Translations under genes and position numbers: made by a program | Source: Kineosporia sp. NBRC 101731 | Lineage (GTDB): Bacteria > Actinomycetota > Actinomycetes > Actinomycetales > Kineosporiaceae | Assembly: GCF_030269305.1 (NCBI RefSeq) | Contig: NZ_BSTC01000016.1 | Location: 62,001-126,000 of the forward strand | Direction of reading: 5' to 3' | DNA length: 64,000 bases | In this document: piece by piece, positions 2,282 through 55,143 of the stretch | Position numbering within the stretch: position 1 is the first letter of the stretch | How the letters are laid out: each line of letters begins with the position of its first letter | The notes under the pieces: generated by a model | The model's input: the letters and a program-made list of their open reading frames with translations, nothing else | What the model was told of the DNA's origin: nothing | Database searches by the model: none

Positions 2282-3556
2282 GTGGCAGCGGCACTTCTGG
2301 CTGATCTGACACCTCTGCGTCACAGCCGTCCTTACCGGCGGATGTGGCTCGGCACGTTCCTCAGCTCCATCGGTTCGCAGCTCACCACCGTCGCGGTCGG
2401 CCTCCAGGTCTTCGACCTGACCGGTTCCACCTTCAAGGTGGGGCTGGTCGGTCTGGCCGCCCTGGTACCGCTGATCGCGTTCGGTCTCTACGGCGGTTCG
2501 ATCGTGGACGCCCACGACCGGCGCCGCGTCATCATCACCAGTTCCAGCGGCCTGTTCTCGGTGGCCCTGTGCTTCGCGCTCCAGGCCTGGGCCGGGCTGG
2601 ACAACGTGTGGCTCCTGTACGCCCTGGTGGCGGTGCAGAGCGGCTTCTGGGCGGTGAACTCACCGGCCCGGATGGCGATCCTGCCGCGGTTGCTGCCGTC
2701 CGAGATGCTGCCGGCGGCGAACGCCCTGTCCAGTCTGGCCAACAGCGTCGGCATGACCGTGGGACCGCTGCTGGCCGGGTTCTGGGTGCACTGGTTCGGG
2801 TTCGGCGGCACCTACTTCAGTGAGGTGCTGCTGCTCGGCGTGGCCCTGACCACGCTGGTCGCGCTGCCGTCGATGCCGCCGCTGGGCGAGGTGCGCCGCT
2901 CCGGCCTGGCCTCGGTGCTGGAGGGCCTGAACTACCTGCGCACCCGGCCGAACGTGCGGATGACCTTCATCGTCGACCTGATCGCGATGATCTTCGCGAT
3001 GCCCCGCGTGCTGTTCCCGGCGCTGGGGGCGGTCGTGATCGGCGGGGGCGCGCAGACCGCCGGCATCCTGGCCGCCGGGATCGCCTGCGGCGCCGTGCTG
3101 GCCGGGGTGTTCTCCGGCCCGGTGAGCCGGGTCCGGCGTCAGGGGCTGGCGGTGCTGGCCGCGATCATCGGGTGGGGATCGAGCATCGTGCTGTTCGGCG
3201 TGGTGGTCGGGTTCGCCAGTCCTGCGCCGGACGCGGGCGCACACTGGCTGCTCTGGCCCGCCTTCGGGGCGCTGGTCCTGGCGGGCATGGCCGACTCGGT
3301 CAGTGCGGTGTTCCGCAGCACGATCCTGCAGACGGCCACGCCGGACCACATGAGGGGACGCCTGCAAGGGGTGTTCGTGGTGGTGGTCGCGGGTGGCCCG
3401 CGCCTGGGTGACCTGGTGGTCGGCTCGATGGCCGACCTCACCACCGAGAGTGTCGCGGCCATCGTCGGCGGTCTGGCCTGCATCGTGCTGGTGGTGCTGC
3501 TGGGAGTCAGCCAGCCGCGATTCGCTCGGTACGACGCTCGTCATCCGGAGCCGTGA
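2282..3556 (+). CDS. MFS transporter, EntS/MFS_3-type exporter
   Basis: A 424-residue major facilitator with about 12 hydrophobic segments. The loop GGSIVDAHDRRRVI after the second segment matches the conserved MFS cytoplasmic loop. The N-terminal LTPLRHSRPYRRMWLGTFLSSIGSQ pattern is typical of the MFS_3 group that includes enterobactin exporter EntS and macrolide exporters. The GTG start lies immediately after the era stop, so it is read through from era. Its 3' end overlaps the convergent VanZ-like gene by 50 bp (3507-3556). Substrate cannot be read from sequence and no biosynthetic cluster is adjacent. Confidence 0.88.
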   Translation: MAAALLADLTPLRHSRPYRRMWLGTFLSSIGSQLTTVAVGLQVFDLTGSTFKVGLVGLAALVPLIAFGLYGGSIVDAHDRRRVIITSSSGLFSVALCFALQAWAGLDNVWLLYALVAVQSGFWAVNSPARMAILPRLLPSEMLPAANALSSLANSVGMTVGPLLAGFWVHWFGFGGTYFSEVLLLGVALTTLVALPSMPPLGEVRRSGLASVLEGLNYLRTRPNVRMTFIVDLIAMIFAMPRVLFPALGAVVIGGGAQTAGILAAGIACGAVLAGVFSGPVSRVRRQGLAVLAAIIGWGSSIVLFGVVVGFASPAPDAGAHWLLWPAFGALVLAGMADSVSAVFRSTILQTATPDHMRGRLQGVFVVVVAGGPRLGDLVVGSMADLTTESVAAIVGGLACIVLVVLLGVSQPRFARYDARHPEP

Positions 3557-4106
3557 CGCGGTTCCCGCGGGAGTTCCACACCCACAGCACCACCACCCCC
3601 AGCGCCGCGCCCACCAGCCCGCCGAAGCCGTTGGTGATGACGTCGTCGATGTCGGTGGCACGGCTGTAGATGGGCAGCTGCAGGATCTCCACGCCGATCG
3701 AGACCACCGTGGCCAGGGCGGCGCACAGCAGCATCCAGCGGCGCACGGTCAGGTACAGGAAGAAGCCCAGGGGGATGAACATGGCCACGTTGCCGCCCAG
3801 GTAGATCAGGAGGTCGGCGGGGTCGTGGACGTACTGCCGCAGCGTGGCGAAGGGCTCCAGCTGCAGGTGGCCGGGGCTGGTGGCGCCCGCGCGGCGGGTC
3901 AGGGTGCTGATCGCGATCACCCCGAGCGAGCCGATCACCAGGCACAGCGCCCAGGGCGTGAGGTCGTGCCCGAAGAGGCGGGCCCGCCGCTGCCGCATGA
4001 GCACCGCGGCCACCAGGGCGATGCCGGCCACCACGATGTCGAGCATCAGCTGTGCGCCGAAGCTGCCGCCGAACCGCAGGGCGTTCGAGAACCAGTACCC
4101 GTCCAC
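3507..4106 (-). CDS. VanZ-like family membrane protein
   Basis: The protein has about five membrane segments. It carries the VanZ-family core FIPLGFFLYL, SIGVEILQLPI and ATDIDDVITNGFGGLVGA near the C-terminus. VanZ gives low-level teicoplanin resistance in enterococci; most actinobacterial homologues are of unknown role. The frame is open up to 4379, but that would run through the leuA leader and coding start on the other strand, so I placed the start at GTG 4106 (199 residues, the usual family size). GTG codons in frame a little upstream are equally possible, so the 5' end is uncertain. Confidence 0.75.
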   Translation of the reverse strand: MDGYWFSNALRFGGSFGAQLMLDIVVAGIALVAAVLMRQRRARLFGHDLTPWALCLVIGSLGVIAISTLTRRAGATSPGHLQLEPFATLRQYVHDPADLLIYLGGNVAMFIPLGFFLYLTVRRWMLLCAALATVVSIGVEILQLPIYSRATDIDDVITNGFGGLVGAALGVVVLWVWNSRGNRVTAPDDERRTERIAAG

Positions 4107-4213
4107 CTGAGCATGATGAACAGGTGGCACTGAGAAGTCGCTGAGGCGAACTCGGGGCACGGGCCCTGTACCGGATTGTTGCCCCCACAGAGTGTGGATG
4201 TACCCTGTCGCTC

Positions 4214-44732: not shown

Positions 44733-44806
44733 GGGCCAGTAGCTCAATAGGTTAGAGCAGCGGACTCATAATCCGTAGGTCGCGGGTTCGAACCCCGCCT
44801 GGCCCA
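44733..44806 (+). tRNA. tRNA with CAT anticodon (Ile2 or elongator Met)
   Basis: A 74-base cloverleaf: acceptor GGGCCAG with CTGGCCC plus discriminator A, D arm GCTCAATAGGTTAGAGC, anticodon arm CGGACTCATAATCCG (CAT), and T arm GCGGGTTCGAACCCCGC. It lacks initiator features (three G-C pairs next to the anticodon loop). CAT is shared by elongator tRNA-Met and by the tRNA-Ile whose C34 is changed to lysidine by TilS; the GGGCC acceptor hints at the latter, but sequence alone does not settle it. The 3' CCA is not fully encoded. Confidence 0.9.
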
Positions 44807-44911
44807 CCTGCTTTGAGCTGCATTAACGTCGGTTTCAAGATCCTTACCGAGCCGATTTTGCAATCGCTCAGCACAGAACGGTGCCGGAGACCCGTAGCCC
44901 GGAACGACGAA

Positions 44912-45650: not shown

Positions 45651-47603
45651 ATGAGCACCCAGAGCCCCACGGCCCTGAGGCGCTGGCTTCTGGAGGGGCA
45701 GGCGCACCGGGCGGCCGAACTCCAGGACCCGCACGGCGAAACGACGGGGAGCAGCGCTTCGGGGGAGCGTGGTCACACCTGGTGGAAGGTGATGTGCCTG
45801 ACCGGGGTGGACTACTTCTCCACCCTGGGCTACCAACCCGGAATCGCGGCGCTGGCTGCGGGGGCGGTCGCTCCGGTCGCCACGATCGTCCTGGTGGCCC
45901 TGACCCTGTTCGGTGCGCTGCCCGTCTATCGCTGGGTCGCCCGGGAAAGCCCTCATGGCGAGGGATCGATCGCCATGCTGGAGCGGGTCCTGCCCTGGTG
46001 GGGCGGAAAGCTTTTCGTTCTGGTGCTGCTCGGATTCGCGGCCACCGACTTCCTGATCACCATGACCCTGTCCGCTGCCGACGCCTCGGCCCACGCGGTG
46101 GAGAATCCCTACGCCCCGCAGTGGCTGGATGGCCACCTGGTGCTGATCACGCTCGTTCTGCTGGGTGCGCTGGGGGCGGTGTTCCTGCGCGGATTCAAAG
46201 AAGCGATCGGTATCGCCGTCGTCCTGGTCAGCATCTACCTTGTCCTGAACGCCGTGGTGATCGCCGTTTCCGTCGCGGAGGTCATCGCCCATCCGCACGT
46301 CATCAGCGACTGGACCAGGCTCCTGCACCAGGAACATCCGAGCTGGCTGTCCGTGGCCGGGGTCGCCCTGCTCGTGTTTCCCAAGCTGGCCCTGGGCCTG
46401 TCCGGTTTCGAGACCGGGGTCGCGGTGATGCCGCAGATCAAGGGTGGGCCGGATGACACCGAGAAGAACCCGGCCGTGCGCATCCACGGTGCCCATCGGC
46501 TGCTGACCACCTCGGCGCTGGTCATGAGCGTCTTCCTGGTGTTGTCCAGCTTCGTCACCACCTTGCTCATCCCCCCGGCCGAGTTCGAGGACGGGGGAGT
46601 GGCCAACGGTCGCGCTCTGGCCTTCCTGGCTCACGAGTATCTGGGCAACATCTTCGGGACCGTCTACGACCTTTCCACGATCGCGATCCTCTGGTTCGCC
46701 GGAGCATCGGCGATGGCGGGGCTGCTGAACCTGGTGCCCCGTTACCTCCCCCGCTACGGCATGGCACCACGCTGGGCCAGCGCGATCAGGCCGTTGGTCC
46801 TGGTCTTCACCGCCGTCGCGTTCTTCGTCACCTGGTATTTCGATGCTGACGTCAACGCCCAGGGTGGTGCCTATGCCACCGGCGTCCTGGTGCTCATCAC
46901 CTCCGCGTCCATCGCGGTCACCTTCACCGCGCGCCGTCGTCGTCATCGGCCGGCCATGCTCTTCTTCGCCACGGTGTCAGCGATTTTCACCTACACCACG
47001 GTGACGAACGTGATCGAGCGTCCGGACGGTCTGCGGATCGGCGCGCTCTTCATCCTGGCCATCATCGTCGTCTCGGTCTTCTCCCGAGCCGGACGTGCCT
47101 TCCAGTTACGCGGCGCCGGAATCACGTTCGACGCTGCGGCCCGCAAATACATCGAGGCTGCCGCTAAATGCGGCACGCTGTACCTGGTCGCCAACGAACC
47201 GGACGCCCGGGACGCCACGGAGTACCGGGACAAGGCCCGTGAGATCCGGGCCGAGAACAACCTGCCCAAGTGGGCGCCGCTGGTCTTCGTCGAGGTCACG
47301 GTCACCGATGCCTCCGATTTCGAGACCGAACTGCGGGTGATCGGTGAAGAACGCTTCGGTCATCGCATCCTGACGGTCCGCAGCTCGGTGATCGCCAACA
47401 CCATTGCCGAAATCACCCTGGCCGTCCGCGATCGCACCGGGCTGGTGCCACACATCTACTTCACCTGGACCGAGGGCAACCCCGTCACCAACCTGCTGCG
47501 CTTCCTCTTCGTCGGTGATGGAGAAGTCGCTCCCGTCACCCGAGAGGTGTTGCGTGAAGCGGAGCCTGACGCGACGCGGCGGCCCCGGGTGCATGTGGGC
47601 TGA
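45651..47603 (+). CDS. APC-family permease
   Basis: A 650-residue amino acid-polyamine-organocation family transporter. About 12 membrane segments lie between residues 45 and 490; [20 protein letters not shown] near the start is the unwound first-helix region where substrates bind. The C-terminal 150 residues are cytoplasmic ([44 protein letters not shown]), an extension seen in a group of actinobacterial APC proteins. ATG 45651 follows GTGAGGG. A decayed copy of the last 30 codons lies about 500 bp downstream. Substrate is unknown. Confidence 0.88.
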
Positions 47604-47682
47604 ACCGGCGCACATGGGCTGAACCGTCGGTCTCGCACACTGATTCGTGACGCAGCTCCCGACGGCGATTCTGCTCAGCGCT

Positions 47683-47925
47683 TCACAACCGCACGATGAT
47701 TTTACCCTCGTTACCCGGAGCCAGCTCATAACTGGAGTAGAGCCTCCGCACCTGCGGCTGCTTCAAGAACGTGATCACCCGCTGCCGCAGCTTCCCGCTG
47801 CCCTTGCCGGGAATGATCTCCACCGCCGTCTGCCCGGTGGCGGCGGCCCGGACGATGAACGTCCGCAGCGCGGTGTCGATGTCCCGGTTGCTCCGGAAGA
47901 TCGGGTGCAGGTCCAGCGACAGCAT
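47683..47925 (-). CDS. Small Smr (MutS2 C-terminal) domain protein
   Basis: An 80-residue stand-alone Smr domain. Seen: the LDLHPIFRSNRDIDTALRTFIVRAAATGQTAVEIIPGKGSGKLRQRVITFLKQP pattern with LDLH and the GKGSG turn typical of Smr nucleases. Smr domains bind and nick nucleic acids, in MutS2 or as small proteins in RNA quality control. A perfect 22-bp palindrome lies 48 bp upstream, so it is probably under a dedicated regulator. The start has AAAGGCGG upstream. Confidence 0.85.
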   Translation of the reverse strand: MLSLDLHPIFRSNRDIDTALRTFIVRAAATGQTAVEIIPGKGSGKLRQRVITFLKQPQVRRLYSSYELAPGNEGKIIVRL

Positions 47926-47972
47926 GGTCCGCCTTTCGTGTCTGAGGTGGCCGGGGAGGTCCCCAGCGATGC

Positions 47973-47994: not shown

Positions 47995-48048
47995 CAGGTG
48001 TACACATCGTGCGCCGGCCGTTCCGAATGTTGTATCTCATGGGGTCGG

Positions 48049-48145
48049 GTTCATCGGTGGCGGAGAAGCCGCTCCCGTCACCCGAGAGGTGTTGTGTGAG
48101 AATGAGCCTGACGTGACACGAAGGCCCCGGGACCAGGTGGGCCGA
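48049..48145 (+). pseudogene. Degenerate duplicate of the permease 3' end
   Basis: This stretch aligns base by base with 47509-47605, the last codons of the APC permease. Shared blocks include GCTCCCGTCACCCGAGAGGT followed by GTTG. Translated, it gives [23 protein letters not shown] against [23 protein letters not shown]. It has no start and cannot be a gene. It marks a past tandem duplication of the permease or a rearrangement that brought in the Smr gene between the copies. Confidence 0.85.
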
Positions 48146-48528
48146 GACGGCGGTCTCCGGCGGGGCGGGGCCCGGTGGCGACGGCGTGGTCATCCCGGTC
48201 GCAACCCGACACCGGTCCCGTTGCCGGCCGCTCCTGGCATACTCTGTGGATCGGGCCGCTCTGATGACGTATCGGGCGGGGCCGGGTAGTCCGGGCAGTT
48301 GTTGCGCCCCGTTGCCCTGAGCCACCAAAGCCGGAGGCCGGTTTCCGGGCGACCGCAAATTCCTCGCCAGAGAAGGTTTCTGAGGACAATGCGGAGTGGT
48401 CTGCGTCACGTCTTTCCAACATCAACTTCGTCTCTGGCGGGACGAGAACTCTGCTGCCGGTCGTCCTACCCGGCCACGTCGTCAGGGACCGACGCCTTCG
48501 GGGCCGGTCCGTACGTTCGAGGAGTCTC
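48146..48528. other. Long leader region upstream of the PYP operon
   Basis: About 380 bp with no supported gene. It is GC-rich with several possible stems, for example around GCCGGAGGCCGG (48328-48342). A -10-like site is not obvious. The segment CAAAGCC-GGA-GGCC (48325-48338) recalls part of the c-di-GMP-I riboswitch core, but the rest of that motif is missing. GAGGAG lies six bases before the first gene at 48529. This is where the operon promoter should be. Confidence 0.5.
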
Positions 48529-48957
48529 ATGACCACTGGACCAGTGACGGTCCCACCGACCGAGGAGCTCTCCACACAGGTCCGCCGGATTCTGTCGGCG
48601 GAGGAGTTCCGGACCGCGCTCGAGCGCGACCTTCTCGACGGTGTCGACCCAGAAATCGCAGCTCGGGTGTTCGCCAAGGCTGATGGACTTCGCCGGGACG
48701 TGCTCGGGCAGGTCGACAACATTCCCATGGAGGAAGAGCTCCAGTGGACGATCGCCCTGAGCTACATGGAGCTGAAGGCGCAGTGGCTCCAGCGTCAGGT
48801 GCGCGTCTGTTACGAGGAGATGATGACCGGTTCCTGCAGCAAGGAGGTGGCTCTGGAGGCCTCGGCGGCGTCCTACCTCATCAGTCTGATCGAGCCGCTC
48901 CTCGATGCCGAGCACCTGCGTCGGATCCGGGAACTCTTCGTCTCGCAGGTCGATTGA
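48529..48957 (+). CDS. Small helical protein, first gene of the PYP operon
   Basis: A 142-residue soluble protein predicted almost wholly helical: LSTQVRRILSAEEFRTALERDLL, IAARVFAKADGLRRDVLGQVDNI, EEELQWTIALSYMELKAQWLQRQVRVCYEEMM, ASAASYLISLIEPLLDAEHLRRIRELF. It has two cysteines (VCYEE, GSCSK) and no membrane segment or signal peptide. No family is recognised. It precedes, by 49 bp, another small protein gene and then pyp, all in the same direction with good ribosome sites, so it is likely co-transcribed. A role as partner or output of the photoreceptor is a guess from position. Confidence 0.7.
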   Translation: MTTGPVTVPPTEELSTQVRRILSAEEFRTALERDLLDGVDPEIAARVFAKADGLRRDVLGQVDNIPMEEELQWTIALSYMELKAQWLQRQVRVCYEEMMTGSCSKEVALEASAASYLISLIEPLLDAEHLRRIRELFVSQVD

Positions 48958-49006
48958 GTCGTTCCCGTGGTGCGGCCGGGCAGAGTGCCCTGAGAGGTGA
49001 AGAAGT

Positions 49007-49408
49007 ATGACCGTGAACAGCCCGCTAGATCTGGTTCCCGACCAGATGCCACCGTCGGAGTACGGCGGCAGGAGGGACCACGATGACAGCCTGGTGCAGC
49101 AGCTGACCGCTCTCTACCACGAGAAGCAGGAGCTCCACCATGCTTTGGGAGTCTCCAGCGCCAGCGAAGTGATCGATCTGTTCCACGCGGCACAGCGCCA
49201 GGACATGCTCAAGAGCCTGGGGGAGCAGCTCTTCTCCCTGTACGGGGAGCGCGAAGAGCTGGAGAAGGGCCTCGGGACTTCGGCATCGAACGAGATCGTC
49301 GATCTCGTCACCAGTTTGCGTGCCACCATCCGTTCCCTCGTCGACGATTCCCGTCGGCGTCTTGCCTATGAGACAACCGTCCTCGACAGCTACGAAAGGT
49401 ACCTGTGA
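49007..49408 (+). CDS. Small protein with duplicated LYxExxEL-LG motif, beside pyp
   Basis: A 133-residue protein. Two segments 42 residues apart repeat the same pattern: LVQQLTALYHEKQELHHALGVSSASEVIDL (29-58) and LGEQLFSLYGEREELEKGLGTSASNEIVDL (71-100). Each reads L-x-x-QL-x-x-LY-x-E-x-x-EL-x-x-x-LG-(TS)-x-SA-x-E-(IV)-(IV)-DL. Such units form coiled coils and occur in some bacterial signalling proteins, where they may act as linkers or dimerisation parts. A C-terminal helix follows. One base separates its stop from the pyp start, so the two are translationally coupled. Function unknown, but close linkage argues for a physical partner of PYP. Confidence 0.72.
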   Translation: MTVNSPLDLVPDQMPPSEYGGRRDHDDSLVQQLTALYHEKQELHHALGVSSASEVIDLFHAAQRQDMLKSLGEQLFSLYGEREELEKGLGTSASNEIVDLVTSLRATIRSLVDDSRRRLAYETTVLDSYERYL

Positions 49409-49409
49409 C

Positions 49410-49832
49410 ATGAGCGATCAGTTCATCGACACCATGTGGGCCACCGCCACCAAGGCCGCGGCCCAGGGCGGGGCCTTCGCCTCCCCGGGCGAACTGTCCG
49501 CCCTGACGACGATGTCCGCCTCACAGGCCGACACGCTGCCCTACGGTGCGGTCAGGGTCGACGACAAGGGCGCGATCAGCGTCTACAACCGGTACGAGAG
49601 CGAACTGGGGGGAATCGCGCCGGCCAACGCGATCGGTAAGAACTTCTTCACCGATATCGCCCCCTGCACCAACAACAAGGTCTTCCGTGGGTGTTTTCTC
49701 AAGGCGGTTGAACAGGGCAGTGCGGACTGCCTTTTCAACTACACGTTCACCTACAAGATGCGTCCCACCGAGGTGAAGGTGCACATGCACCGGGCCAACG
49801 GGGTCAACTGGATGCTCATCGCCAAGAAGTAG
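49410..49832 (+). CDS. pyp: Photoactive yellow protein (PYP)
   Basis: A blue-light photoreceptor of the PAS fold whose p-coumaroyl chromophore is bound as a thioester. The 140-residue product aligns with Halorhodospira PYP over its whole length (LPYGAVRVDDKGAISVYN; IGKNFFTDIAPCTNNKVF; LFNYTFTYKMRPTEVKVHM). Tyr59, Glu63 and Cys86 have the same spacing as the canonical Tyr42, Glu46 and Cys69, and Tyr111 and Met117 match Tyr94 and Met100. The canonical Arg52 position is Ile69, which may alter photocycle kinetics. It has a 17-residue N-terminal extension relative to the canonical protein. A p-coumarate:CoA ligase-like gene and an ammonia-lyase gene follow, the enzymes needed for the chromophore. 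Confidence 0.93.
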   Translation: MSDQFIDTMWATATKAAAQGGAFASPGELSALTTMSASQADTLPYGAVRVDDKGAISVYNRYESELGGIAPANAIGKNFFTDIAPCTNNKVFRGCFLKAVEQGSADCLFNYTFTYKMRPTEVKVHMHRANGVNWMLIAKK

Positions 49833-49924
49833 GTGCCACGGCGTCGATGGGGCCGTACCGGCTCATCGGCGCCGTCACCGTTTGCCCCGGGTTTGCCCCG
49901 GGGCGGCGAACCACGTGAGGGGAC

Positions 49925-51517
49925 ATGGACGAGACGGGCCTGCCGGTCGACGCCACCGGCGAGCGTGAATTGAGTGCCCGGCTGCGCCAGAGACTGCGGG
50001 GCTCCAGCGTCCCGGTCATTCTCGACGGCGAACGCACCCTGCCCGCAGCCAGTCTGTGGGTCAGTGCCCGGCGGTTGGTCGCCGGTCTACGCGCCGCCGG
50101 TCTGGAGCGCAACGACCGGGTACTGGTCTGCACGAACGACGACCTGGTGCTGGCCGCCGCCGTGGTTGCCGGGTTGACCGGCGGAATCACCATGGCTCTG
50201 CTGCGCCCGCCGCCCGGCGGGATCACGGCCGACCGGATGCGGGCCGGAGCCGAGGCCGTAGATGCCCGGCTGGTGGTGCATGCCTCCTCGGACCAGATCG
50301 AACCGTCCGGCCACGAGGGCATGCTCGCTCCCGCCTGGATGGTGTCCGCGAGTCTGGAGGGACTGGCCCCGGTCCCGAAGTTGCGGCGGGCGTGCCGACG
50401 GGCCGACCCCGACGGCCCGGGGATCGCCCTGCTGCTGCACACCTCCGGTTCCACCGGGCGTCCCCACTGGGTGGCGCTGACCCCCGGGAATCTGACCGCC
50501 GTCCTGAACTCCCACCTGACCGTCCTTTTCGGGGACGCCTGGGATCCCCAGGACCCGGGCGAGCGGCCGGCCGGAGTCATGGCCAGTGTGCTGCCGTGGC
50601 ACCATGCCTTCGGAGTCGTCCTGGATCTGCTCGTCGGTCTCACCGCGGCGCAGGTCGTGCTCCGGGACCGGGCCGCGGGCGCCGACCCCGAGCGTCTGGC
50701 AGCCCTGTTGCAGCAGGCGGGGGAGGGAGCCTGGCTGAACAGCGTCCCGCTGACCCTCCGCCGGTTCCTGCGGGCCGCGCCGAACGAGGCGCCAGCCCGG
50801 CTGGCGGCGCTGGGAGGAGGGTTGGTCGGCGGTGCTTCCGTCGACGCCTCTCTGGGACAGGAACTTTCACGCACCCGGTTACGGCCTGGATACGGGCTGA
50901 CCGAGGCCGGCCCCGGAGTGTGCCTGGGCGATCCGGGTGACTTCGCGGTCGGGGTGATCGGCCGCCCGGTCGGCTGTCACGTGGAGATCGTGGACGGGCG
51001 GCTGGCGGTGCGTGGCCCCAATGTCGGGCCCGGGGTGCTGGACGCCACGGGCCTCCTGGTGCGGCGACCGGAAGATCGGCTGATCACCGAAGACACGGTA
51101 CGTGATCATGGGCAACGCTTAGTGTTTACTGGCCGCGTGGACGACACCGTCAAGCTTCCCAACGGCTGCTGGGCCAATCTCACCGACATCGACAGCGAGG
51201 TCACGGCCGGGACCGGGGTGGATTGCGCCTCCCTGTCCCGGCCGGACTCGGGTCTGACCCTGGTGGTTGATACCGCCCCGGCCGCGGTGGAGGCATGGGT
51301 GGAACGCTCTCCCCGCCCCTGGACGGCGCACGTCCGGGCGGTGGCGGCCGTGCCCGCCGACCACTGGCCCCGATCACCCAAGGGCGAGATCCAGCGGCGC
51401 CACCTCGCCGAGCATCTGCTCGGGAACGACTCCCGCCCGGTCCTGGACGATCTGGACGATCCGTCCACGACACAGGGCGGTGAGGTCGCCCGGCCGGAGC
51501 CGAGCAGTTCACGGTGA
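49925..51517 (+). CDS. pcl: p-Coumarate:CoA ligase-like adenylating enzyme
   Basis: An ANL-superfamily ligase of 530 residues in the position of pCL, which makes p-coumaroyl-CoA for PYP. Seen: the phosphate-binding LLLHTSGSTGRP (173-180), LPWHHAFGVVLDLLVG, GYGLTEAGPGV, and LVFTGRVDDTVKLPNGCWANL. Two oddities: the residue after GRP is His, not Lys, and at the C-terminal A10 motif (SPKGEIQRR) Glu488 stands where the adenylation Lys is normally found, with a Lys two residues earlier. Activity is therefore likely but should be tested. ATG 49925 has GAGGGG upstream. Its TGA overlaps the ammonia-lyase start. Confidence 0.85.
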   Translation: MDETGLPVDATGERELSARLRQRLRGSSVPVILDGERTLPAASLWVSARRLVAGLRAAGLERNDRVLVCTNDDLVLAAAVVAGLTGGITMALLRPPPGGITADRMRAGAEAVDARLVVHASSDQIEPSGHEGMLAPAWMVSASLEGLAPVPKLRRACRRADPDGPGIALLLHTSGSTGRPHWVALTPGNLTAVLNSHLTVLFGDAWDPQDPGERPAGVMASVLPWHHAFGVVLDLLVGLTAAQVVLRDRAAGADPERLAALLQQAGEGAWLNSVPLTLRRFLRAAPNEAPARLAALGGGLVGGASVDASLGQELSRTRLRPGYGLTEAGPGVCLGDPGDFAVGVIGRPVGCHVEIVDGRLAVRGPNVGPGVLDATGLLVRRPEDRLITEDTVRDHGQRLVFTGRVDDTVKLPNGCWANLTDIDSEVTAGTGVDCASLSRPDSGLTLVVDTAPAAVEAWVERSPRPWTAHVRAVAAVPADHWPRSPKGEIQRRHLAEHLLGNDSRPVLDDLDDPSTTQGGEVARPEPSSSR

Positions 51518-53079
51518 CCGCCACGGTGATGCTTCCGCTGAACCTGACCGCCGAGCGACTTGAGTCCCTCGCCGGCACTGCCCGGGTCGAGGTGGACCTG
51601 TATCCGGAGGCGGAACAACGCATGACGGCGGCCCGCAACGGGTTGCTCGAGCTCCTGGCCGCCGGCACCCCCGTCTACGGCGCCACCACCGGATTCGGCC
51701 CGCATGTGCGATACCCGGCGGACGGTGACCCTTCGGCCCAGGGGGCTTCGCTGATCGCGCACCTGGCCTCCGGCACCGGTGATCCGGTCGAGCCGGAGCT
51801 GGTGCGGGCCACGATTCTGGTGCGCGCCAACTCGCTGGCCCGAGGGCATTCGGGGATGCGAGCAGAGACCCTCCGGGCCCTGCTGGGCCTGGTGCGTGCC
51901 GGAGTGGTCCCTACCGTCCCGAGGTTCGGCAGTGTGGGTGCCAGCGGGGACCTGATCCCGTTGGCACACATCGCCCGGGCGCTCACCGGCGAAGGGCGGG
52001 TCCTCGCCGACGGTCCCGGTTCACGCCCGGCCGCCGAGGCGCTCGCCGAGGCCGGCCTGTCCCGGGTCGGTCTGGACGCCCGGGAAGCCCTGGCCCTGGT
52101 GAACGGGACCAGCTACTCGACGGCGATGGCAGCGATGGCTCTGGCCCGCACCCGTCGGCTCCTGCATCGGGCGGTCGATCTGACCGGATGGTTGTACGCC
52201 AGTCTGGGTGCCCAGGAGCAGGCGCTGGATCCGAGGCTGCACGCGGTCCGCGGACAGTCGGCGCAGCAGCGGGCCGCCGCTGCCGTACGGGAAGCGGTCG
52301 CCGCCGCACTCCCCGGTGTGCCTTCTCCGGCCGGCACCAGTACTGGCGACGAGGAGAGCGGGGTCGGGGAAGGCGCCGGCCGGACGAGCCTGCCGGAGCG
52401 ACCGCTTCAGGAGGTTTACTCGTTGCGGTGTGCGCCACAGGTCCTGGGTCCGACGTTCGAACTGACCGGCCTGGCGGGGCGCATGATCGAGGACGAATTG
52501 GCCGGGGTCAGCGACAATCCGGTGCTGGTCGATGCCACCGCGGCTGGTCTCGGGTGGGAAGCGCTGCACGGCGGTAACTTCCACGCTGCTGCGACAGCGA
52601 CGGCGGCCGATCTGCTGACCGGGGCCCTGACCCAGGCAGCGGTGCTGGCCGAACGGCAGATCGACGTCCTGATGTGCCCGGCCACGTCGAGGGCCCCGCT
52701 GCTGCTGGCCAGCCGGCCGGGAGCGCAGGCCGGTCTGGCCGGTGCCCAGCTCACCGCTTCGGCCGTGCTGGCCGCCGCCCGCCACGCCTGCGGATGGGCG
52801 TCGACGATGAGTGTGCCGACGAACGCCGGTAACCAGGACATCGTGCCCATGGCACCGCTGGCGGCGCGGACATCACTCGAGCAGAGTGACCGCTTGGCCA
52901 GCATTCTGGCAGTCCTGGCCATCTCCCTGGTGCAGTTCCAGCATCTGCGGGCCCGAGGGCTGGCTCCGGGCCGGGCCGCCCTGCCCCCGGCCTGGATGCC
53001 GTGGGTGGAAGGGTTTGACCAGGATGTCGAAACCCACTCGATGATCGAGATCGTCCGGGAAGGGATCCTCGCTCCGTGA
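51514..53079 (+). CDS. tal: Tyrosine ammonia-lyase (aromatic amino acid ammonia-lyase)
   Basis: A 521-residue MIO enzyme. The catalytic Tyr55 is in VYGATTGFGP, and the MIO-forming Ala-Ser-Gly is at 143-145 in GSVGASGDLIPLAHI. The residue pair His83-Leu84 (in SLIAHLASGTG) occupies the specificity position: His-Leu favours tyrosine, whereas histidine lyases have Ser-His and phenylalanine lyases Phe-Leu. So the product from tyrosine should be p-coumarate, the PYP chromophore precursor. It overlaps pcl by four bases (GTGA). Its 3' end is convergent with the MCP gene across a shared palindromic terminator. Confidence 0.9.
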   Translation: MTATVMLPLNLTAERLESLAGTARVEVDLYPEAEQRMTAARNGLLELLAAGTPVYGATTGFGPHVRYPADGDPSAQGASLIAHLASGTGDPVEPELVRATILVRANSLARGHSGMRAETLRALLGLVRAGVVPTVPRFGSVGASGDLIPLAHIARALTGEGRVLADGPGSRPAAEALAEAGLSRVGLDAREALALVNGTSYSTAMAAMALARTRRLLHRAVDLTGWLYASLGAQEQALDPRLHAVRGQSAQQRAAAAVREAVAAALPGVPSPAGTSTGDEESGVGEGAGRTSLPERPLQEVYSLRCAPQVLGPTFELTGLAGRMIEDELAGVSDNPVLVDATAAGLGWEALHGGNFHAAATATAADLLTGALTQAAVLAERQIDVLMCPATSRAPLLLASRPGAQAGLAGAQLTASAVLAAARHACGWASTMSVPTNAGNQDIVPMAPLAARTSLEQSDRLASILAVLAISLVQFQHLRARGLAPGRAALPPAWMPWVEGFDQDVETHSMIEIVREGILAP

Positions 53080-53097
53080 ACGGGTGAAGCCGGATGC

Positions 53098-53117
53098 CGG
53101 GTGACCCGGGTCACCCG
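53098..53117. terminator. Bidirectional terminator between tal and the MCP gene
   Basis: CGGGTGACCC followed at once by its exact complement makes a perfect 20-bp palindrome. It lies 18 bases after the tal stop and overlaps the MCP stop codon on the other strand. No T run; likely termination in both directions. Confidence 0.6.
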
Positions 53118-54787
53118 GTCACCTGGAGGCTGTCCTGGTCGGACCGGTCCTCCCGGGGCGTCTCGATGGTGAACTGGGTGATCATCAGCTGCTGTAGTTC
53201 GCTGCCGAGGATTTCCAGGCTGCTGGCGGACGCCCGGGCCCGGGCCACCGCGCCCGCGGTGAGATCGGAGGTGGCTATGACGCAGTCGGACAGCATCCCG
53301 ATCATCGAGGAGGTTCCGACCGCTCCCTGGGCGGACATCGAGATGTCGGCGATGATCGACCTCTGACTGTCCACCGCCCCGGCCACCAGCCCCTGCTTGG
53401 AGTTGATCTGGGTGACGGTTTCCGTGATCTGCTCGATCGAGCCGGCCGCCGATGACACATCAGCCTGGATCGCCGCCACCCGGGTAGCGATGTCGCTGGT
53501 GGCGCTGCGGGTTTCCTCGGCCAGCGTCTTCACCTCGTTGGCGACGACGGCGAAGCCCTTGCCGAACTCGCCGGCCCGGGCGGCCTCGATGGTCGCGTTG
53601 AGGGCCAGCAGGTTGGTCTGCTGGGCCACCGAGTTGATCAGTTCGATCACGTTGCCGATCTCTTCGGACGAAGACCCCAGGCGCTGGATCTTCTCCTGGA
53701 CCACGGCGACACCACCGGTGGCCTCGGTCGCGGTCCGGGCGGCCTCGTCGGCGTTGCGGGAGATGTCGGCGATCGATCCGTTCATCTGCTCGGCCGCGGC
53801 GGCCACGGCCGCCACGATTCCGGCCACTTCGGAAGAGGCAGCCGTGACGGCCTGGGACTGGGCGGACGACTCGGCGGCCCCCTCCGCGACCTCGTCACTG
53901 ATCCGGCTCAGATGGGCCCCGTGCTCGGTGACCTGGCCGGCGGAGGCGTTGATCGTGCGCACGACGTCGTAGAGTTTGTCCAGGGCGCCGTCCAGATCGG
54001 CTCCCATCCGGCCAATTTCGTCCCGAGTGGTCATCTCGGTGCGATGGGTCAGGTCTCCCTGGGCGAGAGCGTGCGTCACGGTCTGGACCCGGCGGGCGGA
54101 ACGACGCACCATCCGGGCGACCAGCAGAGCCATGGTGAAGGCGGCGAGTTCGGTCACCAGCCAGAGGGCGATCACCTCCCAGCGATCGCGGCGGTGATCG
54201 GCCAGCAGCTGGTTCTGATCGGCGGCGGCCTGGCTGACCGTGGCGGCCCGGACGGTCGTGAGGCCGGTCAGCAGATTCTGCATCTGAGTCTCGCCCTCGC
54301 CGGTCAACAGCGAGAGAGCAGCTTCCGGGTCGGTGGTCAGCGCCGGCACCAGGGTGGAATCTCGCCAGGTGGTGTACGCGGTCCATAATTCGCTCAAAGT
54401 TGCTGAAGATGAGGAGCTTCCGTCAGAAGCAGCGTAGCTTGCGAGGGTTCGGGCAGCCGACTCGTCGAGCGAGCGGGCCTGGGCGATGGCCTGGGTCTGT
54501 GCGGCGCCGCTGGTTGCCTGGGCGAGAAGCAGGTCCGCCCGGGACTGAAGGACGTCGGCGCGCAGGTCGTCCACCGAGGTGAGGGGGACGATGTAACTGC
54601 GGCTGATCTGGGGAGCCGTGTCAGCCAGAAGCATGAGGGTCATCAGCACCGCGCCGCCACTGAAGATGGCGGCGACGACACGGACGCTGATGATTTTCTG
54701 GAACAGCGACAAGTTGGACAGGGGTTCCAGAAAACGCTGCGTCACTCCGAACCGGGGTGGCACCGTCTCTGCCTGAACGCTGACCAT
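53111..54787 (-). CDS. Methyl-accepting chemotaxis protein
   Basis: A 558-residue chemoreceptor. TM1 (about residues 28-50) and TM2 (about 208-230) flank a helical external domain of 150 residues, probably a four-helix bundle. A HAMP domain (about 230-285) and a long MA signalling coiled coil follow. The CheA/CheW-binding hairpin tip is seen in [47 protein letters not shown] 54787 has GGGAGA upstream; the frame extends to 55027 but that part is not convincing. The gene converges on the PYP-tal operon, and motility is expected in the organism. Confidence 0.9.
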
Positions 54788-55143
54788 CGAGGGTCTCCCA
54801 GAGTTGAAGTTCTTCACCACGACACCAGCGACCCAGGCGATGGTCGCTGCGATGCCCGGTGAAGGTACCCGGGCCATCCGTGGTGATCTTCGACCACCGT
54901 CCTGCGCAGTTGAGTCCGGACGATGGGCGAGCTTTCGGCCTTCGGGGGGTAGATCTCGCTCGACCCCGCAACCGCACTTTGCTGTCGGTCGACCGAGCCA
55001 CCGCGACTCGTCCGTGGCCCGGGTCACATTCTGATGGGCTCGCTGAGAAACCCCCGGGTAACGACCACTGTCGCTCCTCGTAACTATCGAGCGATAGCTA
55101 ATAGACCCACACCGTCCAGCCGTCCCGAGAAAGCACAGGCCCC
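54788..55143. other. Divergent intergenic region between MCP and binding-protein genes
   Basis: 356 bp without a supported gene. The MCP frame stays open to 55027 but lacks a good start beyond 54787. Contains the CTAT-N6-ATAG inverted repeat at 55084-55097 and should hold the promoters of the MCP gene and of the transport operon. No other structured signal was recognised. Confidence 0.5.
55084..55097. promoter_or_regulatory. CTAT-N6-ATAG inverted repeat upstream of the transport operon
   Basis: CTATCGAGCGATAG is a perfect 6-2-6 inverted repeat. The outer CTAT-N6-ATAG agrees with the core of the corynebacterial AmtR box, the target of a TetR-type nitrogen regulator. It lies 47-60 bases before the binding-protein gene of an operon with amidohydrolases. 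The TetR gene at 62975-63589 is a possible owner. TAAT-like sequence 3' of it may be the -10. Confidence 0.5.

Follow-up and report, generated by a model that had tools for sequence, protein, structure and literature searches.

The five-gene cassette and its photoactive yellow protein

We analysed a 64,000-nucleotide stretch of Kineosporia sp. NBRC 101731 (contig NZ_BSTC01000016.1, positions 62,001 to 126,000 of the forward strand; hereafter the window). Positions 48529-53079 of its + strand hold five genes, which encode two small proteins (genes 1 and 2), a photoactive yellow protein (PYP), an AMP-binding ligase and a tyrosine-type ammonia-lyase. All five open reading frames (ORFs) were found there in the same direction, as an earlier note on this DNA had claimed. 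As shown below, relatives of genes 1 and 2 accompany PYP in spirochaetes, and the five genes share with a methyl-accepting chemotaxis protein (MCP) gene a stretch that is missing from the nearest relative, genome G002. The features of the locus are:

Gene 1, 48529..48957, + strand: 142-aa all-helical PYP companion of an unnamed family; a homologue lies beside PYP in locus L002
Gene 2, 49007..49408, + strand: 133-aa helical, coiled-coil-like PYP companion; homologues lie beside PYP at 17 spirochaete loci
pyp, 49410..49832, + strand: PYP with Tyr59/Glu63/Cys86 and Gly at the Thr50 position (TIGR02373, PDB PYP, residue table)
pcl, 49925..51517, + strand: AMP-binding enzyme, putative p-coumarate:CoA ligase (PF00501)
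tal, 51514..53079, + strand: aromatic amino acid lyase, putative tyrosine ammonia-lyase (PF00221, alignment to 2o6y)
mcp, 53111..55027, - strand: transmembrane methyl-accepting chemotaxis protein (MCPsignal, HAMP)
Stretch missing in G002, 48031..55024, ~7.0 kb with approximate edges: from comparison at the same site of the nearest relative
22-nt perfect palindrome, 53097..53118, over the convergent tal/mcp ends: read from the sequence

As the gaps between successive genes of the run are 49, 1, 92 and -4 bases, the five genes look like one transcription unit. The starts of genes 1-4 are each preceded by a purine-rich, ribosome-binding-like sequence. The G+C content of the window is ~69%; the source genome measures 8.26 Mb in 88 contigs, and the six genomes of the genus span 7.8-9.4 Mb.

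The PYP, translated from 49410, carries Tyr59, Glu63 and Cys86 at spacings of 4 and 23, the same as canonical Tyr42/Glu46/Cys69; both the translation and the residue table confirm this part of the earlier note. TIGR02373 (photo_yellow) matched the protein with E=1.1e-35 and 122.4 bits, which does not reach the curated cut-off of 143.05 bits. As this model recovers only 20% of the PYP homologues found by BLAST, according to the available text of PMC9664959, a score below the cut-off does not by itself exclude PYP membership. The TIGR02373 match, compared with E=1.2e-7 for Pfam PAS, places the protein nearer to known PYPs than to generic PAS domains. Its best PDB match is a PYP (E=5.3e-27), and all 33 PDB matches at E<=0.001 are PYP, Ppr or PYP derivatives. 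The aromatic residues tabulated for PYP are retained, except that Phe28 is replaced by Tyr. Positions 47, 49, 52 and 97 differ from PDB 1otd, which we take to be a Halorhodospira-type PYP, and match the pattern common in spirochaete loci that contain gene 2. Position 50, linked to the absorption maximum in the available text of PMC12826048, is Gly in the window PYP and Thr, Ser or Ala in the other 30 PYP rows of the table.

In the PYP tree, which was built with neither a generic PAS outgroup nor sequences from PMC9664959 (the clade labels used here are those of that paper), the five rows nearest to the window PYP by tree path are spirochaete PYPs with gene 2, the top identity being 51%, although the branching is weakly supported. 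Spirochaete PYPs that lack genes 1 and 2 sit apart: those of G543, G577, G650 and G699 group with PDB 1otd, and those of G462 and G521 with remote plasmid PYPs.

The two other families of the cassette were also matched by sequence; sensor and chromophore-supply genes lie together as the earlier note had it. The ligase matches Pfam AMP-binding (PF00501, E=7.5e-33) and has adenylate-forming motifs (HTSGSTG at 172, YGLTEAG at 323, PKGEIQ at 485); its sole PDB match below 1e-10 is an ancestral luciferase. From the genomic context we infer coumarate specificity, and hence a p-coumarate:CoA ligase (pCL). The lyase matches Lyase_aromatic (PF00221, E=1.8e-117) and contains the MIO-forming triad Ala143-Ser144-Gly145. 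Its selectivity pair His83-Leu84, the His-Leu tyrosine-type pair of the earlier note, aligns to the HL of 2o6y, presumably the Rhodobacter tyrosine enzyme, whose record reads putative histidine ammonia-lyase; entry 2o78 has His replaced by Phe there. The best NCBIfam matches of the lyase are histidine ammonia-lyase models, below cut-off; the protein is predicted to be a tyrosine ammonia-lyase (TAL). A 99/99 branch places the window lyase with six lyases of spirochaete gene 2 loci, and a 100/99 branch places the window ligase with 11 ligases of spirochaete PYP loci; branches are long in both trees. The text of PMC12826048 available to us finds TAL in only 5% of predicted pyp operons and pCL in 32% of them, so a complete set of PYP, ligase and lyase is uncommon.

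The earlier note regarded the operon as a new version of the PYP system, in part because of its phylum. Novelty at the phylum level does not hold: the accessible parts of PMC9664959 report PYP from Actinobacteria (fewer than five genomes, one of which was used as a query), and the PYP list in those of PMC12826048 includes Actinomycetes. The order PYP, ligase, lyase and the chromophore residues are likewise those of the Halorhodospira halophila pyp-pcl-tal operon, for which the same parts of PMC12826048 give just these three genes and neither gene 1 nor gene 2; the window PYP differs from that system in its Gly at position 50 and in the four positions unlike PDB 1otd. What is new is the two extra genes.

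Genes 1 and 2 accompany PYP in spirochaetes

The extra genes belong to no confident family, in keeping with the earlier note, but they are not peculiar to this organism, being conserved companions of PYP in spirochaetes. Neither window gene matched a Pfam or NCBIfam family above cut-off. The same is seen with their relatives: four gene 1 copies, counting the L044 fusion described below, and three more gene 2 copies gave a best Pfam value of only 0.014, 11 gene 1 members gave zero NCBIfam matches at 0.01, and the best values for 19 gene 2 members were 5.6e-4 (NCBIfam) and 2.6e-3 (Pfam). Judging by their relatives in spirochaetes, genes 1 and 2 are real genes despite the missing family match.

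A scan of genome contigs returned a single relative, locus L002 of a Leptospiraceae metagenome-assembled genome, with the order 107-aa coiled-coil-like gene, PYP, 136-aa gene. The 136-aa gene matches window gene 1 (pairwise E=2e-9) and is the sole gene 1 match in that whole genome. A PYP search at E<=1e-8 followed in 344 Spirochaetota genomes, an even sample of a larger group. PYP was found in 22 of them, at 24 places, and the neighbourhoods of all 24 copies were compared, ORF by ORF, as 23 stretches. Used as single queries, window gene 2 found 16 ORFs beside PYP (E=1e-8 to 4e-3) and window gene 1 found nine (E=3e-7 to 3e-3). By profile, 17 spirochaete loci, with 18 PYP copies between them, have gene 2; of the 24 PYP copies, 17 are directly preceded by it. 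Gene 1 is present in 11 of the 23 stretches, right after PYP or after the ligase, the L048 copy being cut by the contig end. Identity to the window copies is 14-36%.

Profiles of gene 1 (A1) and gene 2 (A2) were run at E<=1e-4 over 344 genomes of that phylum (the genome handles agree wherever they are listed). A1 matched 13 genomes and A2 matched 16, all among the 22 with PYP; neither gene was found in any of the 322 PYP-negative genomes at this threshold, which very divergent copies may escape. As both profiles were built from PYP-adjacent copies, presence with PYP is mostly given by construction, whereas the absence from the 322 other genomes was free to fail. The hypergeometric p values of 4e-18 (gene 1) and 6e-23 (gene 2) ignore shared ancestry and are hence too small. 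Four of the 13 gene 1 genomes (G487, G576, G607 and G664) contributed no row to A1. Only two gene 1 copies are truly apart from PYP, that of G487 on another contig and that of G607 ~10 kb away. The two G664 matches, at contig ends, are probably two parts of one gene. The G576 match (C21:2469-2861), in a stretch that the ORF listing left unlabelled, directly follows a lyase (2911-4197) on a 4.3-kb contig that may be the broken-off rest of a PYP operon. These stray copies leave the case for genes 1 and 2 as it was, since it rests on their absence from PYP-negative genomes. Outside the spirochaetes, the plasmid search returned no relatives of window genes 1 or 2, L040 gene 2, L049 gene 1 or L045 gene 2, and viral contigs held no relative of window gene 2 or of PYP (gene 1 was not run alone there).

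The predicted structure of gene 1 has six helices (pLDDT 84.5) and is not a simple coiled coil. Foldseek gave 375 PDB matches to this model at E<=10 and none at E<=0.001, and the window sequence alone matched nothing in the PDB at E<=1. Trp86, Ser115 and Glu122 are invariant in all 11 rows of the gene 1 alignment. A match of the gene 1 profile to 9hnh_A (1.1e-6) was rejected as kinship, as it consists of three weak, partly overlapping pieces on an internally repeated helical chain. The gene 2 model shows long helices at a pLDDT of only 61.5, too weak for a fold search, and the sequence contains two copies of an 'LYxEKExLxxxLGxS'-like repeat. Matches of the gene 2 profile to a designed helical bundle ('designed' as read from names) and to Hsp104 coiled coils, at E 7.7e-4 or worse, were also rejected as kinship.

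Many spirochaete copies of genes 1 and 2 end in a common tail of ~25 residues, the Leptospira-like loci excepted; no other ORF of the PYP loci has this tail at a convincing E-value. Because iterated profiles mixed the two genes through the tail, the gene 1 profile was built with tails cut. At L044 (7394-8131), a natural fusion of gene 1 and gene 2 lies just downstream of PYP. The fusion, the common tail and the common phyletic pattern suggest that genes 1 and 2 work together. All five window gene types are consecutive at three of the 23 spirochaete PYP loci (L040, L043 and L047), in the order gene 2, PYP, ligase, gene 1, lyase; gene 1 thus lies between ligase and lyase there, whereas it comes first in the window.

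A 7-kb stretch absent from relatives

PYP is present in one of the six genus genomes, that of the window, and the five relatives lack it. In a search of 58 genomes, genes 1 and 2 were found in the window's own genome only, as was full-length PYP. Weak TIGR02373 signals in two order-level genomes are parts of frames of 586-1130 aa with partial PAS domains and were rejected as PYP. Among 396 genomes sampled from the Actinomycetota phylum, one has PYP; looking for the five-gene order in other actinobacteria, as the earlier note proposed, gave no second case in this sample.

The nearest relative, G002, is 95% identical in the adjoining transporter protein. It matches the window at 47682-47945 (an Smr gene), over a 58-base stretch ending at 48030 and again from 55025 onward, with 89 bases of its own between the second and third of these matches. 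The stretch missing from G002 comprises the five genes and mcp (53111-55027), with no other gene assigned. In G001 and G003 the match to the window likewise stops near 55045, and the 20 kb compared there gave no MCP match. A five-gene cassette therefore under-describes the unit, as the convergent mcp lies in the same missing stretch. As all five genus relatives lack PYP, insertion of the 7-kb stretch here is the simplest explanation. Codon usage and G+C of the stretch show no strong deviation.

The surroundings are variable as well. Collinearity with G002 first breaks at 44819, 11 bases after a tRNA-Met gene (44733-44808), and from there to the Smr gene G002 differs, with ~10.9 kb of other sequence; the site after tRNA-Met looks like an integration hot spot and variable region. 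The best plasmid match of the adjoining transporter genes is a Streptomyces record. A 103-nt direct repeat (82% identical, 47508-47610 and 48050-48152) flanks the Smr gene, one copy overlapping the 3' end of a 672-aa ORF and the other lying at the left edge of the island.

A candidate light-sensing module

Taken together, these results probably describe a complete blue-light module acquired as an island, in which genes 1 and 2 serve as an adaptor dedicated to PYP. The adaptor role is suggested by the co-occurrence with PYP, the adjacency and the one gene fusion. In such a horizontally gained 7-kb module, by homology to the H. halophila system, the lyase would convert tyrosine into p-coumarate, the ligase would activate it as a CoA thioester, and p-coumarate would be loaded on Cys86 of PYP. 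Blue light would then drive the PYP photocycle, as in characterised relatives. The helical bundle of gene 1 and the coiled-coil-like protein of gene 2 probably form the adaptor that reads the state of PYP, and in this flagellated organism they would most likely relay the signal to the neighbouring chemoreceptor for a light-driven motility response.

Several observations weigh against this. The window PYP is placed beside the PDB 1otd clade, with modest support (83/78) and a long branch. In the enzyme trees, the lyases of L049 and L050 lie on the other side, with a plasmid lyase, as does the ligase of L051, with two plasmid PYP-locus ligases. The 107-aa gene of L002 is only weakly similar to window gene 2 (pairwise E=0.025). 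Genes 1 and 2 are not an obligate pair, since gene 2 occurs without a gene 1 match in three of its 16 genomes (G495, G643 and G652), and six of the 22 PYP-positive genomes (G462, G521, G543, G577, G650 and G699) have neither. Both window genes lack the common C-terminal tail. Gene 2 is coiled-coil-like, and coiled coils can mislead similarity searches; six NCBIfam families match the 19 gene 2 members weakly, with SpiroCoCo coiled-coil models in three members. A deletion in G002, rather than an insertion here, would also account for the missing stretch, but it is not favoured, insertion being simplest.

The output of the module is less certain than its existence. Whether it reaches flagellar motility in this organism by way of the mcp in the 7-kb stretch is, in our view, evenly poised. 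The mcp product matches MCPsignal (E=5.2e-32) and HAMP (E=3.6e-8), with hydrophobic stretches around residues 111-138 and 284-307; translation probably starts close to 54787, at Met81 of the ORF. The flagellin encoded in all six genus genomes and the number of MCP matches in the source genome (20) count in favour of this output. A rival that is distinctly possible, though we lean away from it, holds that the PYP cassette is real, that the chemoreceptor is an unrelated neighbour and that the output lies elsewhere, for example in a response to photo-oxidative stress or in gene expression. The mcp lies on the opposite strand, convergent to the five genes and outside the operon, and the 20 MCP matches of the source genome can be read in favour of this rival too; the mcp product also has a predicted 4HB region of its own, a weak match below cut-off (E=2.1e-4). 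In the spirochaetes, where every ORF was compared with the window MCP and Pfam was applied to some of the neighbours only, an MCP adjoins the module at only four of the 17 gene 2 loci (in the same direction at L045, L048 and L049, divergently at L051; at one more, L060, the contig begins at gene 2), so that output through an MCP is not general. Other gene 2 loci lie beside different genes: a cyclopropane-synthase-type (CMAS) gene upstream of the module in L040, L041, L046 and L053, DUF1365 and amine oxidase genes in L040 and L053, a MerR gene in L040 and a guanylate cyclase in L052. As the companions persist while their surroundings change, genes 1 and 2 appear to belong to the PYP core and not to one output. 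Three points count against an unrelated chemoreceptor: the stretch that G002 lacks includes the mcp; the top-scoring matches of this MCP in the other five genomes of the genus reach only 36-38% identity, exceeded only in short segments of the signalling domain; and MCPs do adjoin the module at those four spirochaete loci.

Known systems offer two parallels for the preferred reading of PYP signalling to a chemoreceptor. In the available text of PMC9664959, Leptospira PYPs adjoin chemoreceptors without sensor domains. These clade B PYPs of Leptospira and Salinibacter resemble the window in the spirochaete-like PYP, the companion genes and the nearby chemoreceptor, whereas the window mcp has a 4HB-like region and is convergent. 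In CetA/CetB of Campylobacter jejuni, an analogy drawn in the same text, a separate PAS protein also signals to a chemoreceptor, but it is a flavin PAS without the PYP chromophore, and companions like genes 1 and 2 are not mentioned there. Proteins like genes 1 and 2 were not found described in the available texts of PMC9664959 or PMC12826048; the word 'coiled' appears in neither main text, and 'hypothetical' appears twice, only in PMC9664959.

Genes 1 and 2 could instead serve chromophore supply or loading, as a scaffold or chaperone for lyase, ligase and apo-PYP, rather than signalling. We consider this unlikely. In L040, L043 and L047 gene 1 stands between the ligase and lyase genes, which would fit such a role, as would the G576 gene 1 match directly after the lyase on the same short contig. 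However, L048, L049, L050, L052 and L060 have gene 2-PYP-gene 1 with lyase or ligase kilobases off or absent from the stretch. Four 1otd-type PYP copies (L054-L057) have a lyase next to them but neither gene 1 nor gene 2, so the chromophore can presumably be supplied without these genes, and coiled-coil-like helices suit coupling better than catalysis. It is very improbable that the matches of genes 1 and 2 reflect the composition of ordinary helical proteins and that their place beside PYP is due to chance: the low identity and the coiled-coil bias would allow it, but a composition artefact would match PYP-negative genomes too and neither profile matches any, and gene 1, with its three invariant residues, is not modelled as a simple coiled coil.

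On the adaptor reading, and more tentatively, a little short of an even chance, genes 1 and 2 would be two undescribed families forming a dedicated adaptor for one type of PYP, in a module that can be transferred across phyla and that drives PYP-dependent phototaxis. PYP signal transmission is called an important knowledge gap in the available text of PMC12826048. Found only together with PYP among the 344 spirochaete genomes, adjoining it in two phyla and fused to one another at one locus, the two small proteins offer direct, testable candidates for this link, and an adaptor made of them would connect free-standing PYP to its outputs. From the island it would also seem that an entire light-sensing module can pass, along with its pigment enzymes, into a distant lineage, probably an actinobacterial one; if it moves across phyla with chromophore enzymes and chemoreceptor, it would give a motile actinobacterium phototaxis.

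Some smaller observations concern the same loci. The palindrome at 53097..53118 is a possible shared tal/mcp terminator, though it lacks a T run and the terminator scan did not flag it. The PYP of L045 (6995-7420), in a row of chemoreceptor, gene 2, PYP and gene 1, has Gln at the Glu46 position; another PYP of its genome (G637), at L044, keeps Glu46. Second, remote PYP-like genes lie beside GGDEF genes in L010 (11408-11782) and L012 (11958-12326), on plasmids that bear a canonical PYP as well; in L012 the remote gene carries the annotation phosphonate transporter. At L040 (1943-6636), MerR regulator, amine oxidase, DUF1365 and CMAS genes stand upstream of gene 2-PYP-ligase-gene 1-lyase, a gene set that to our mind resembles light- or photo-oxidation-controlled operons of other bacteria. 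L053 (6575-8238) has a tandem gene 2-PYP-gene 2-PYP, followed by ligase and gene 1. In the related spirochaete stretches L049 (8702-11569), L050 (2733-5607) and L086 (905-4057), gene 1 and the lyase are separated by ORFs of 93-95, 475 and 368-370 aa, whose order is the same in all three.

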